Of a stretch of 64,000 nucleotides of DNA, positions 23,899 through 62,782 are shown one piece after another. The position numbers and the translations under genes are program-made. Every line of letters starts with the position of its first letter. The stretch's first letter is position 1. The notes below the pieces were generated by a model. It made no database searches. It was not told the origin of the DNA and saw nothing but the letters and a program-made list of their open reading frames with translations. Origin of the DNA: an uncultured Rubrobacteraceae bacterium (GTDB lineage Bacteria > Actinomycetota > Rubrobacteria > Rubrobacterales > Rubrobacteraceae); the NCBI GenBank assembly GCA_902806095.1, contig CADCVF010000011.1, positions 30,635 through 94,634 on the forward strand, in the 5' to 3' direction.

Positions 23899-23931
23899 TG
23901 CCGGGTCACGGCCCCAAGGGGGACCGTGACG

Positions 23932-24107
23932 CTCATCGAGAGCGGCGGAGGGACGGGCCCTGAGAAGCCGCGGCAACCGGCGAGGCGTGAACGCCTCGTG
24001 GCGGGTGCCAACTCCCGCGGAGCAGACTCCGGTAGATGAGGTGAAAGTGTAGTCACAGCCTCTCTCCTCCGCGCGAATGGGTAACGAAAACGGAGAGAGG
24101 TCTTATC
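23932..24107 (+). ncRNA. SAM-I (S-box) riboswitch with RBS-masking platform
   Basis: The aptamer (23932-24040) carries the S-box consensus in order: CTCATCGAGAG, GGAGGGA, GGCCC-TGAGAAGCC-GCGGCAACC, a P3-type stem (GGCGAGGCG / CGCCTCGTGGC), GGTGCCAACTCC, and closing AGATGAG that pairs with CTCAT as P1. Downstream, CCTCTCTCC (24059-24067) is exactly complementary to GGAGAGAGG (24092-24100), which is the ribosome-binding site of the next gene. The 3' P1 strand AGATGAGG can alternatively pair with CCTCTCT apart from one bulged U. So SAM binding should hide the RBS; without SAM the anti-RBS strand would be captured. Confidence 0.92.
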
Positions 24108-25961
24108 TTGAGTCCGAACTTGAGAGAGTTGCTCGCGAAGCGGGTCCTGATCGGGGACGGCGCCGTTGGCACGCTGCTCGGCGAGCGCGGCGTAGGCTTC
24201 GGCCATCCCTACGCCCGCGCGAACCTCTCCCACCCGAACATGGTCACCGACATCCACGTAGAGTACCTGAGGGCTGGCGCGGACGCCATAGAGACCAACA
24301 CCTTCGCCGCCAACCGTTTCAAACTCGAGACCCACGACCTCGAGGAGAGGGTGCGCGAGGTAAACGCCGAGGGCGCAAGCCTCGCCCGCAAGGCTGCCGG
24401 TGCAGTCGCTGGAACGGGTGACAGGGCGCTCGTACTCGGGGCCGTCGGTCCACTCGGACGTCCGCTTGCCCCGGTAGGTCCCGTCCGTCCGGAGCTGGCG
24501 AAGTCCGTCTTTCTGGAGCAGGCCGAAGCGCTCCTCGAAGGCGGGGCCGATGTGATCCTCCTCGAGACCTTCACCGACCTCGTCGAACTGCGGCTCGCCT
24601 ACGAGGCGGTCCGGGCTCTGGGCGCGCCGGTCCTGGCGTACAAGACCTTCGTCGAGGACGGTGAGACGCTGGCGGAAGGGCTGCCTGGGCGGGCGGCGCG
24701 TGAGATCTCCTCCTGGGGAGCCGACCTTGCGGGGGCGAACTGTACCGTCGGTCCGCAAAGGATGGTGGAGATCATCGGTCAGATGGCGGACGCGGCAGGC
24801 CCCGTCGCTGCCCTCCCCAACCCCGGCCTCCCCCAGATCGTCGGCGGCCACATCCGCTTCAGCAAGGACGTCGACCACTTCGCCGAGTATGGAGTAAAGC
24901 TCGCCGAAGCCGGGGCAAGGCTCGTAGGCGGCTGCTGCGGGACCACCCCGGCGCACGTCAAGGCGCTCTCCGAAGCGTTGCGGGATTTCAGGGTCGAAGG
25001 CACGGGAGTACGCCGCCGGGCGGCCGTGGTGGAGCGGGAAGGGCATACGGAAGTTCCCGCAGAGCCTGTCTCGGAGTTCGCGGAGCGATTGCGTACAGGC
25101 TTCGCCGTTACGGTCGAGGTCGACCTGCCGCGCGGTAACGCCATCGAGCAGATCGTCGAGGCGGCGCGCCGGTTGAAGGAGCGTGGCGTCCACGCGATAG
25201 ACATCTCCGACGGGGCGCGCGCCAGGCTAAGGATGCATCCCGTGGCCGCGGCCAGGATCGTGCAGGACGAAGCTGGCATCGAGGTCGTCGCCCACATCTC
25301 ATGCCGCGACAGGAACATCCTCGGGTTGCAGGCAGACCTGCTCGGGGCGGCGGCATTGGGGGTGAAGAACATCCTGGCCGTGACGGGAGATCCGGCCCAG
25401 ATCGGGGACTACCCGGAAGCGACCTCGGTCTTCGATACAGATTCAGTCGGACTCGTCCACATCCTCTCCAGGATGAACATGGGGGAGGACCTCGCAGGCA
25501 ACCCCATAGGCGAGCCGCCGGGATTCCTCGTGGGGGCGTCTTTCAACCCTACGGCAGAAGACCTGGACGAGGAGGTAGAGAAGCTGCGGCGCAAGGTCGA
25601 GGCCGGGGCCCACGCCTTCTGGACTCAGCCCGTCTTCGAGATCGGGGCCCTCGAGAATGCCCTCGATCGTATCGGCGACGATGGAGTCTGCATCCTGCTC
25701 GGCCTCATGCCCCTCCGCAGCGCCAGGCAGGCTGAGTTCCTCCACCACGAGGTACCAGGCATAAACATCCCGAAGCACGTCCGAGAGAGGCTCGCAGCCC
25801 TCTCTCCAGAGGACGCCCCGAGGTACGGAGTCGAGGTCGCCCAGAAGCTACTCGTCGAGGCGAGGTCCTTGATCGGCGGCGCGTACATAATGCCGCCGGC
25901 CAGCGCCCCTGACCTCGCTGGGGATGTGCTCGAGGCCATCCACGTACCGACGGGGAGATAG
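24108..25961 (+). CDS. Homocysteine S-methyltransferase / 5,10-methylenetetrahydrofolate reductase fusion
   Basis: The 617-residue protein fuses two domains. Residues 1-about 290 form a homocysteine-methyltransferase barrel with zinc ligands (GANCTVGP and the paired cysteines of [10 protein letters not shown]). Residues about 320-617 are a MetF-like TIM barrel: TVEVDLPRG, AHISCRDRNILGLQADLLGA, NILAVTGDP, GASFNP and FWTQPVFE. Bacillus YitJ has the same layout. It would reduce methylene-THF to methyl-THF and may methylate homocysteine. TTG start with GGAGAGAGG 7 nt before it, the site masked by the riboswitch. metH follows after 6 nt. Confidence 0.92.
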   Translation: MSPNLRELLAKRVLIGDGAVGTLLGERGVGFGHPYARANLSHPNMVTDIHVEYLRAGADAIETNTFAANRFKLETHDLEERVREVNAEGASLARKAAGAVAGTGDRALVLGAVGPLGRPLAPVGPVRPELAKSVFLEQAEALLEGGADVILLETFTDLVELRLAYEAVRALGAPVLAYKTFVEDGETLAEGLPGRAAREISSWGADLAGANCTVGPQRMVEIIGQMADAAGPVAALPNPGLPQIVGGHIRFSKDVDHFAEYGVKLAEAGARLVGGCCGTTPAHVKALSEALRDFRVEGTGVRRRAAVVEREGHTEVPAEPVSEFAERLRTGFAVTVEVDLPRGNAIEQIVEAARRLKERGVHAIDISDGARARLRMHPVAAARIVQDEAGIEVVAHISCRDRNILGLQADLLGAAALGVKNILAVTGDPAQIGDYPEATSVFDTDSVGLVHILSRMNMGEDLAGNPIGEPPGFLVGASFNPTAEDLDEEVEKLRRKVEAGAHAFWTQPVFEIGALENALDRIGDDGVCILLGLMPLRSARQAEFLHHEVPGINIPKHVRERLAALSPEDAPRYGVEVAQKLLVEARSLIGGAYIMPPASAPDLAGDVLEAIHVPTGR

Positions 25962-25967
25962 GAGTCG

Positions 25968-28900
25968 ATGGTTCTCCAACGCACGAAGAACGAAGAGAGG
26001 CAGGCCAGGTTATCCCGTTTTCGGGCGCTCCTTGAGCAGCGCATCGTGCTGCTCGATTGCGCGATGGGGACCATGATCCAATCCTACGGCCTCTCGGAGA
26101 AGGACTACCGCGGGGAACGCTTCGCCGATCATCCGGGGGAGCTCAAGGGCAACAACGATCTGCTCTCGATCACCAAGCCAGGGATGATCTGTGACATACA
26201 CGAGGCCGCGATGGATGCGGGCTCGGACATCATCGAGACGAACACCTTCAGCTCGACCTCCATCGCCCAGGCGGATTACCTGTTGGAAGATCTGGTCTAC
26301 GAACTGAACTACGAGGCGGCCCGCCTGGCCCGCGAGACCGCGGACGCCTACACGGAAAAGACGCCAGAGAGGCCGCGCTTTGTGGCCGGCGCCATCGGAC
26401 CGACGAACCGCACGGCCTCGCTCTCGCCGGACGTCAACAACCCTGGCTTCAGGAACATCACCTTCGACGAGCTCGCCGGGTCGTACGCAGAGGCCGCGCG
26501 GGGGCTCGTCGATGGCGGGGTGGACCTGCTCCTCGTCGAGACCGTCTTCGACACGTTGAACGCCAGGGCTGCCATCTTCGGGATCACATCTTACCTAGAG
26601 GATGAGGGTATCGACGTTCCCGTTATGATCTCGGGCACGATCACCGACGCGAGCGGACGCACGCTCTCGGGCCAGGTGACCGAGGCTTTCTGGAACTCCG
26701 TGCGCCACGCGAACCCGATAAGCGTGGGGCTGAACTGCGCGCTCGGGTCGAAGGAGCTAAGGCACTACGTCGAGGAACTCGCCAGGATCTCGGACGTTCC
26801 CGTTAGCGCCTACCCGAACGCAGGCCTGCCCAACGAGTTCGGCGAGTACGAAGAGACACCGGAGATGATGGCGGCAGAGATCCTCGAGTGGGCCGAAGCA
26901 GGCTGGCTGAACATCGTCGGCGGCTGTTGCGGGACGACGCCGGATCACATAACGGCCATAGCCGAAGCCGTCTCTGGCCACCCGCCGCGCGAGATACCCG
27001 AGATCCCGAAGAAGCTCAGACTCTCGGGGCTCGAGCCGTGCAACATCGGTCCCGACACCCTGTTCGTGAACGTCGGCGAGCGGACCAACGTCACGGGTTC
27101 TGCGCGCTTCAAGGACCTCATACTGAACGAGGACTACGAGACTGCCCTTGACGTGGCGCGCCAGCAGGTCGAGAACGGCGCCCAGATCATAGACGTCAAC
27201 ATGGACGAGGGGATGCTCGAAGGAGAGGAGGCTATGGTCCGTTTCCTCGACCTCGTCGCCTCAGAACCCGACATCTCGCGGGTGCCCGTCATGATCGACT
27301 CGTCAAGGTGGTCGATCATCGAGGCTGGCTTGAAACACGTACAGGGTAAGGCGGTGGTCAACTCCATTAGCATGAAGGAGGGCGAGGAAGAGTTCGTCAG
27401 GCAGGCGCGAATGCTGAAACGGTACGGTGCAGCGGTGGTCGTAATGGCCTTCGACGAGAGAGGCCAGGCCGACTCGAAGGACAGGAAGGTCGAGATTTGC
27501 AAACGCGCTTACCGCGTCCTCACGGAAGCGGTCGGTTTCCCGCCCGAGGACATCATCTTCGACCCCAACGTCTTCGCTATCGCAACGGGCATCGAGGAAC
27601 ACGACAACTATGGTGTTGACTTTATCGAGGCGGTCCGCGAGATCTCCTCTACCCTCCCCCACACCAAGACCTCAGGCGGCATCTCGAACGTCTCGTTCTC
27701 TTTCAGGGGCAACAACCCTGTGAGGGAGGCGATCCACGCGGTCTTCCTCTACCACGCCGTAAAGGCTGGCCTGACGATGGGCATAGTCAACGCGGGCCAG
27801 CTCGCCGTCTACGACGAGATCGACGAGGACCTGCGCGAGGTCGTAGAAGACGTTGTCCTGAACCGCCGCCCCGACTCTACCGAACGCCTGCTTGCCCTGG
27901 CGCAGAAGTATCGCGACCAGGACGATACGGTATCTGAGGTGAAGGACCGGGAATGGAGGGGCTGGCCCGTCGAGAAGCGGCTCGAGCACGCGCTGGTCAA
28001 GGGCATAGCCGAGTTCGTCGAGGAGGACACGGAGGAGGCGCGCCTCCTTGCCTGGCGTCCGCTCGACGTGATCGAGGGCCCGCTTATGGACGGGATGAAC
28101 GTCGTCGGGGACCTGTTCGGTTCAGGCAAGATGTTCCTGCCGCAGGTCGTAAAGAGCGCCCGCGTGATGAAGAAGGCCGTAGCCTACCTCATCCCGTTTA
28201 TCGAGGAGTCCCAGGGTGAGGCCCGCAAGCCCAACGGCACGGTGGTGATGGCGACCGTCAAGGGCGACGTGCACGACATAGGGAAGAACATCGTCGGGGT
28301 CGTGCTGCAGTGCAACAACTTCGAGGTCATAGACCTCGGCGTCATGGTGCCTTCGGCGAAGATCCTACAGACCGCCAGGGAGGAGGGCGCTGACGCCATA
28401 GGGCTCTCCGGCCTCATAACACCCTCTCTGGAGGAGATGGTCCACAATGCCAAAGAGATGCAGCGCGAGGGCTTCGACATACCGCTGCTCATCGGCGGGG
28501 CAACGACCTCCCAGACGCACACGGCCGTCAAGATCGCACCGGGCTACGAACAGCCCGTGATCCACGTAAAGGACGCCTCACGCGCCGTCGGCGTAGTCCA
28601 GAACCTGGTGAGCGAGGGCCGCAAAGCCGGCTACGCTGATCAGATCGCCGAGGACTACGAGCGGGTTCGGCGCAAGCACGCAGGCCGCCGCTCGAAGACC
28701 ACCCTGACGACGCTGGAGAAGGCGCGCGCCAACCGCACGAAGATCGACTGGGACGGCTACCGGCCGCCGAAGCCCAACGTTCTCGGTGTGCGGACGTTCG
28801 ACGACTACGCCCTTCAGGATATAAGGCCCTACATAGACTGGACGCCCTTCTTCCACTCCTGGCAGCTAAAGGGCAGCTATCCAGGGATCCTGGACGACCC

Positions 28901-29750
28901 CGACAAAGGCGTGGAGGCCAGAAAGCTCTTCGCCGACGCGCAAGGCTTGCTCGACCGCATCATAGCCGAGAAGTGGCTCACGGCCCGCTCCGTCTTCGGC
29001 CTCTTCCCCGCGAACGCCCTGGAAAGCGATTCCGTAGAGGTCTACACCGACGAATCGCGCGAAGAGGTGCTCGCCAGCTTCGACTTCCTGCGCCAGCAGA
29101 AGCAGAAACCGCCAGGCCGTCCGAACCGCTCCCTCGCCGACTTCGTCGCCCCGAAGAGCCCGGGTCTCGAAGACTACGTAGGGCTCTTCGCCGTGACCGC
29201 CGGGCTCGGTGTTGACGAGGCCGCGCGGCGCTTCGAGCGAGACAACGACGACTACAACGCTATTATGGTCAAGGCGCTGGCCGACAGGCTCGCCGAGGCC
29301 CTCGCCGAGCTCATGCACCGGCGGGTCCGTACGGAGTTCTGGGGCTACGCGGCGGATGAAGACCTAGACAGCGGGGCCCTGATCCGTGAGGAGTACAGGG
29401 GCATCCGCCCGGCCCCAGGATATCCTGCCTGCCCCGAGCACACAGAGAAGCGCACCCTGTGGAGGCTGCTCGACGCGGAGAACAATGCCGGCATCACGCT
29501 CACCGAGAGCTGCGCGATGTCACCGGGCGCTGCAGTCAGCGGTTACTACTTCTCCCACCCCGATTCCACTTACTTCGGCGTGGCCGAGATCGGACGCGAC
29601 CAGGCCACAGATTACGCCGAACGCAAGGGCTGGACCCTCGAAGAGGCCGAGAAGTGGCTCGCGCCGAATCTAGCTTACGATCCGGAGGCCGGGCAGAACA
29701 GCGACGGGGCTACAGAGGTCCCACAGGCGGTGAGCAAGTCCGCAGGCTAG
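25968..29750 (+). CDS. metH: Cobalamin-dependent methionine synthase
   Basis: The 1260-residue protein has all modules: homocysteine-binding barrel (about 20-340, with LNCALGS and [10 protein letters not shown] zinc cysteines), pterin-binding domain (about 355-640, [26 protein letters not shown]), B12 cap and B12 domain with [10 protein letters not shown] (about 764-773; His ligates cobalt), and a reactivation domain (about 930-1245; [19 protein letters not shown]). It transfers methyl from methyl-THF to homocysteine through cobalamin. Under the same riboswitch as the upstream fusion gene. ATG with GATAGGAG. Its stop overlaps the convergent desaturase remnant by 4 nt. Confidence 0.97.
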
Positions 29751-61850: not shown

Positions 61851-62782
61851 TAGTAGGTCTCCCTGTATCGCCGGACAAACCAGTAACTCACGAGGTTGAG
61901 AACCAGGGTCATCAGGAACAGCGCCGACCCTACTGCGAATATCGATTTGTAGGTTACCGACTCGCGTGGGGTCTCCCCGCCGACAACCTGGACGATGTAA
62001 GCCGTCATCGCCTGCATACCTTCGAGAGGACTCCCGAACCAGTTCGCCTGCGCCCCCATCGCGATGGTCACTATCATCGTCTCTCCGATGGCGCGCGAGA
62101 TACCCAGGATCACGGCCGCCACGATCCCCGAGAGCGCCGCAGGCAGCACGACCTTCGTCGCCGTCTCGCGCTTGGTCGCGCCGAGGGCGTAGGCGCCTTC
62201 CCGTAGGGACCGCGGCACCGCGAAGATGGCGTCCTCGCTTACCGAGGCCACCGTCGGGATGATCATCACGCCCATGATGAGGCCGGCGGAGATCGCGTTG
62301 AAGGACTCTATGCCGGGGAAGACGCTGTCCCTAAAAAGCGGGGTGATGAACGTCAGGGCGAAGTACCCGTAGACCACCGTCGGCACGCCGGCCAGGATCT
62401 CAAGGGCCGGCTTGAGCCACTGCCGCAAGCCACTCGGGGCGTACTCGCTGAGGTAGATGGCCGTGAGCAGCCCTATCGGGAGCGCTACGGCTATGGCGAT
62501 GATGGTCGCCACCAGCGTGCCGTAGACGAGCGGCAGGACACCGAAATCGCCCTGCGTCGGCGCCCACCGCGTCGAGGTCAGAAACTCCACCACTGAGACC
62601 TCAAGGAAGAACCGCAGAGTCTCCTCGAAGAGCACGATTACGATCCCGAACGTAGTAAAGATCGACAGGTACGCGCAGGCCGTGAGAAAGACCTTTATGA
62701 CGCGCTCCCTTGCCTCCCTGGCGCGGCTATTGCGCTTCCAGGCGTCCGTCCCTGACCTCGTACCTTCCGCCCTAATCGCCAA
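61850..62782 (-). CDS. pstC: Phosphate ABC transporter permease PstC
   Basis: The 310-residue protein has six helices with [40 protein letters not shown] and the coupling loop [23 protein letters not shown] start at 62782 with GGAGGG upstream. It follows pstS after a hairpin. Confidence 0.96.

Follow-up and report, generated by a model that had tools for sequence, protein, structure and literature searches.

A SAM-I riboswitch predicted to mask the Shine-Dalgarno sequence of a yitJ-type gene in a Rubrobacteraceae bacterium

The yitJ leader of Firmicutes ends in an intrinsic terminator. Functionally characterized SAM-I (S-box) riboswitches have used Rho-independent terminators (PMC7270179). 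Translation attenuation is the commonest mechanism predicted outside Firmicutes (PMC2258182), and experiments on a SAM-I riboswitch of Xanthomonas showed that it works chiefly at the level of translation (PMC7270179). Barrick and Breaker call for a U-tail weight of 4.0 in a terminator and define a dual class of leaders in which the Shine-Dalgarno sequence (SD) lies inside the terminator hairpin with the start codon within 10 nt (PMC2258182). For Actinobacteria, that survey stresses SDs located inside the aptamer itself (direct attenuation); Rubrobacter is not named in its text, and among the papers searched, none joined Rubrobacter with the phrase "SAM riboswitch."

Here we describe a SAM-I leader in a 64-kb stretch of DNA (the window). 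The genome is assigned by sequence to the Rubrobacteraceae because the closest homologue, 94% identical, comes from a Rubrobacteraceae MAG. When SAM is plentiful, this riboswitch probably represses a yitJ-type gene by masking its SD from ribosomes, and probably represses the following metH as well. The locus shares its aptamer class, its type of regulated gene (a fusion of homocysteine S-methyltransferase and methylenetetrahydrofolate reductase), its OFF logic, and the use of the P1 3' strand in an alternative helix with the S-box leader of Bacillus subtilis yitJ, but the window stem holds the SD and is not followed by a canonical U-tract. An anti-SD:SD stem acting on translation is also found in the met SAM-I leader of Xanthomonas campestris, where the evidence is experimental rather than predicted as it is here; that leader controls a homoserine acyltransferase operon through an unrelated expression platform (PMC7270179). 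Unlike the actinobacterial examples of direct attenuation, the window SD is outside the aptamer, and sister species fit the dual class (PMC2258182). The sequence-only reading of this DNA had remarked that most described S-box controls, in Firmicutes, terminate transcription. That is correct, yet the window is not exceptional (PMC2258182, PMC7270179): its arrangement belongs to a known and expected mode of control and is conserved across the Rubrobacteraceae.

A SAM-I aptamer upstream of methionine genes

The aptamer and the genes behind it comprise the following features.

23930 to 24042, plus strand: SAM-I (S-box) riboswitch aptamer, matching Rfam RF00162 over model positions 1 to 108 with 75.1 bits (cutoff, 44.4)
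23932 to 23937, plus strand: 5' strand of P1, CUCAUC, which pairs with GAUGAG at 24035 to 24040 in the SAM-bound form
23954 to 23957, plus strand: P2-loop strand of the aptamer pseudoknot, CGGG, with its partner CCCG at 24014 to 24017 and compensatory variants in relatives
24035 to 24040, plus strand: 3' strand of P1, GAUGAG, common to P1 and the anti-sequestering helix
24108 to 25961, plus strand: regulated gene, a YitJ-type homocysteine S-methyltransferase/methylenetetrahydrofolate reductase fusion of 617 aa with a TTG start at 24108 to 24110, matching NCBIfam PRK08645 with 662 bits (cutoff, 453) and Pfam S-methyl_trans and MTHFR
25968 to 29750, plus strand: metH, B12-dependent methionine synthase, matching NCBIfam PRK09490 with 2,164 bits

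The full-length Rfam match bears out the original identification of a SAM-I riboswitch, and the NCBIfam and Pfam matches do the same for the MetF-type fusion gene placed downstream of it. SAM-I was the sole RNA family reported by Rfam in the window. The P2-loop/J3-4 pseudoknot of the SAM-I class (RF00162) is present and, judging from the variants in relatives, is under compensatory selection. In the window, as in relatives, the aptamer lies upstream of methionine and SAM metabolism genes, as in the SAM-I class generally, and the predicted aptamer would be expected to bind SAM. Because metH begins 6 nt past the fusion gene, the two genes are probably in one operon. Upstream of the leader are two carotenoid genes, crtI- and crtB-like.

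SAM-I was found in all 40 genomes surveyed from the class. The 83 copies comprised 35 yitJ-type short leaders, 36 leaders of metX (homoserine O-acetyltransferase-like, assigned by sequence), 3 metH leaders behind a decayed yitJ, and 9 located elsewhere. In the fetched aptamers, the pseudoknot pair varies by class, being CGGG/CCCG in yitJ leaders, CUGG/CCAG in metX leaders, and CAGG/CCUG in L031. In three genomes, at L086, L091, and L106, extra yitJ-type SAM-I leaders are followed by metH, with only a yitJ remnant or mini-ORF in between; because the leader was kept though yitJ decayed, this suggests that it serves metH.

The metX leader of the window's own genome (L001, 1501 to 1760; C69:4093-4217 and downstream) also has a SAM-I aptamer followed by an SD-masking stem, in this case formed by AGCCUCUUCU/AGAAGGAGGCU. 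It differs from the window leader in its larger platform, in a near-invariant GAGCGGGUUGCGCG...AACCCG insert, and in having no U-rich tail. The same masking stem and loop module occur in the metX leaders L003, L008, L009, and about 30 more, and some 17 nt separate the SD of metX leaders from the nearest ATG. A third, more divergent SAM-I class scored 47 to 71 bits (L107, L117, L119, L120, L121, L122, L123, L124, and L125). Several divergent copies adjoin mobile-element genes (a phage integrase domain at L121, Prim-Pol at L119, and a serine-recombinase-like gene at L123), several of the leaders have short CCCCTC..GAGGGG hairpins with T-rich tails behind them, and some copies are upstream of small ORFs starting MGLYERLL.

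Mutually exclusive helices at the Shine-Dalgarno sequence

Four elements define two competing helices.

24031 to 24042, plus strand: 5' arm of the ON (anti-sequestering) hairpin, GG[U]AGA[U]GAGGU, seen when the partial transcript and the ON element were folded
24058 to 24067, plus strand: 3' arm of the ON hairpin, GCCUCUCUCC, which includes the entire anti-SD, from the same folds
24059 to 24067, plus strand: anti-SD, CCUCUCUCC (CCTCTCTCC in DNA), the exact complement of 24092 to 24100, with compensatory changes in relatives
24092 to 24100, plus strand: SD, GGAGAGAGG, with a 7-nt spacer to the TTG start

Every sequence quoted in the sequence-only reading was found at the coordinates it gave, including AGATGAGG, which occupies 24034 to 24041 as the P1 3' strand. 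The exact complementarity it described between CCTCTCTCC and the SD was confirmed to the base over all 9 bp (the OFF helix). The SD is held in one helix, and a competing helix that draws on P1 cannot form alongside it, which is the arrangement of a sequestor and antisequestor.

A C/U-rich linker could complement a purine-rich SD by chance, as purine-rich P1 and SD strands and pyrimidine-rich linkers pair readily. In the window leader alone, a linker:SD duplex of equal stability arose in about 1% of shuffled linkers (P = 0.01), and single-leader shuffles gave a P value of only about 0.27 for the P1:linker helix. Comparison of relatives argues strongly against chance. Among the 33 alignable leaders of the 35 orthologous Rubrobacteraceae yitJ leaders, OFF-helix positions −1 to 5 formed canonical pairs in 28 to 32, and positions 6 and 7 did so in 25 and 24, respectively. 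At position 2, 5 leaders have C-G in place of U-A, a change of both strands, and position −1 varied as G-C, G-U, or A-U. Cognate linker:SD duplexes were also more stable than swapped ones, with 0 of 20,000 permutations reaching the observed value for all 35 leaders and P = 0.002 for 21 nonredundant leaders; related leaders are not independent, and the nonredundant values are the ones to use. Because the helix is kept in nearly all 35 orthologous leaders with compensatory changes, the anti-SD:SD complementarity, as read from these alignments, is not accidental. The compensatory changes and the cognate-versus-swapped comparison refute a chance origin for the SD helix, and chance pairing as an account of the whole leader is scarcely credible.

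The ON helix comprises 10 bp with two bulged U residues, engages all nine anti-SD bases, and excludes both the OFF helix and P1. The fold agrees with the pairing of the P1 3' strand and CCTCTCT proposed in the sequence-only reading, but it runs slightly longer than that pairing, which has 7 bp and a single bulged U. In nearly every one of the 35 yitJ leaders, both structures can be traced. The covariation of anti-SD and P1 strands anticipated by the sequence-only reading was found in relatives, clearly for the OFF helix and more weakly for the ON hairpin, where cognate combinations outperformed swapped ones with P = 1e-4 across 33 leaders and P = 0.05 across 15 nonredundant leaders. Once redundancy is removed, ON-helix covariation in these sequences is weak, and weaker than that of the OFF helix. 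Folding of the hairpin was needed to detect it: a duplex-only comparison of the P1:linker helix, restricted to the 8 nt after P1, gave no signal (P = 0.45).

A third pairing, of the P1 3' strand with the spacer UCUUAUCU (24101 to 24108), appeared in the minimum free energy (MFE) fold and was rejected because its conservation was unconvincing (P = 0.10 and 0.04). Within the loop of the SD hairpin lies a conserved CUCCGCGCGA-like stretch (24068 to 24085), which in many relatives makes a small hairpin of its own (GCGC-CGAC-GCGC in L007), weak in the window.

Predicted order of folding

Partition functions were calculated for the growing transcript; the values are nearest-neighbor equilibrium predictions that omit tertiary contacts, ligand, kinetics, and ribosomes. 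P1 was favored until the anti-SD emerged, with a probability of 0.9 when the transcript ended at 24060. With the end at 24068, pairing of the P1 3' strand with the anti-SD was ahead by about 4 kcal/mol, and the probability of P1 was 0.001. Predicted SD accessibility reached 0.92 at 24096, just after the SD began to emerge, and the OFF helix was dominant from 24100. Forcing P1 left the SD fully paired. Part of a deep fall in P1 probability at 24075 was due to the aptamer P2 strand pairing nonnatively with the linker, and this fall was set aside as evidence; the plain MFE fold of the whole leader, which lacks P1, is uninformative about the switch.

These predictions are consistent with the following mechanism. 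Plentiful SAM would stabilize P1 (23932 to 23937 with 24035 to 24040), and as long as P1 held, the anti-SD would be free to capture the SD, preventing ribosomes from starting at the TTG. Without SAM, the P1 3' strand would quit the aptamer and take the anti-SD as soon as it was transcribed, ahead of the SD, which would then emerge free. The choice would be settled while the RNA is being transcribed, and the ON form would be held in a kinetic trap, leaving ribosomes a limited time to use it.

In the full-length window leader, predicted SD accessibility was about 0% with or without P1, so a translational switch governed by thermodynamics alone would never turn on. This is what a constitutive SD-masking hairpin would look like, in which the SAM-I aptamer had little effect and the gene was simply poorly translated. 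Such a mask would need neither the SAM-I aptamer kept in 40 of 40 genomes of the class nor the compensatory selection on the pseudoknot and the conserved competing P1 pairing, and we regard it as very improbable. SAM-responsive masking remains the preferred reading, and since the masked form is predicted to win even without SAM once the SD has been transcribed, the ON state would need to be held kinetically. As the masked form is the predicted stable end state either way, we infer that the choice between the two falls during transcription; in the same equilibrium model, ligand-free SD accessibility was at least 0.3 in only 14 of 35 relatives.

U-rich tails and the possibility of termination

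One further feature lies behind the SD helix.

24101 to 24110, plus strand: U-rich stretch that extends into the TTG start codon, UCUUAUCUUG, a weak U-tract in the window and a strong one in sister species

This tail is not explained by SD masking alone. At least 6 T residues occurred in the 10 nt after the SD in 26 of 35 yitJ leaders, compared to 1 of about 116 other SD-led starts. The background, drawn from the window and the fetched loci, initially held 121 SD-led starts, 6 of them U-rich, and 5 of those 6 were yitJ starts that had slipped in. The lone non-yitJ start with a U-rich spacer is on the minus strand of the window near 62782, with GGAGGGTTTTGG before its TTG.

These tails raise the alternative of dual attenuation, in which this hairpin doubles as an intrinsic terminator, with the SD as its 3' arm and the spacer plus TTG as its U-tract, and SAM would both stop transcription and mask the SD of read-through RNA. 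The TTG start and the U-rich spacer are kept together in yitJ leaders, and a masked form that wins at equilibrium is usual for terminators. A consensus scan, limited to loops of 3 to 8 nt, found no classical terminator in the window leader, and the SD hairpin was scored separately with our own implementation, using the terminator formula of d'Aubenton Carafa. Scores were positive in four members of the window's genus (L007, +33; L012, +27; L085, +19; L029, +16) and in L006 of another genus (+4). The hairpins of the window and its nearest relative, L100, scored −38 with a U-tail weight of 2.3, below the 4.0 of Barrick and Breaker (PMC2258182), although our weights come from an implementation that differs from their program. 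With these values the window hairpin, whose loop is about 24 nt, does not qualify as a terminator with the SD in its 3' arm and a start within 10 nt. U-tail weights exceeded 4 in 8 of 35 relatives, and L004, L074, L087, and L010 have no U-tract, the stem being extended over the spacer instead. Short-loop, terminator-like hairpins in other SAM-I leaders of Rubrobacteraceae scored −40 to +5.

In the U-rich relatives, dual attenuation is likely. As the explanation for the window we consider it unlikely, and termination there is possible as a secondary effect beside SD masking. Under the PMC2258182 scheme, the window belongs to "translation attenuation" and the strong relatives belong to "dual transcription and translation attenuation." The sequence-only reading had described a complete translational switch; the aptamer, both exclusive helices, and their conservation stand, but the masked state is predicted to dominate at equilibrium even without SAM, and the U-rich tail leaves room for a part-time terminator role.

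Taken alone, the window yields a routine annotation, a methionine operon of the Rubrobacteraceae that SAM probably represses. The SAM-I switches studied by experiment are mostly from Firmicutes and act by termination, and the 35 leaders, which share their type of regulated gene with the model yitJ riboswitch but have an SD-masking platform and graded U-tracts, would offer a direct test of platform conversion. Tentatively, the orthologous yitJ leaders of a single genus may run all the way from the window, where the U-tract behind the SD-masking stem is broken, to L007, where it is an uninterrupted U8, with the SD serving as terminator arm and the spacer plus TTG serving as U-tract. If true, the graded leaders would form a natural gradation linking translational to transcriptional control by riboswitches, which would account for the conserved TTG start.
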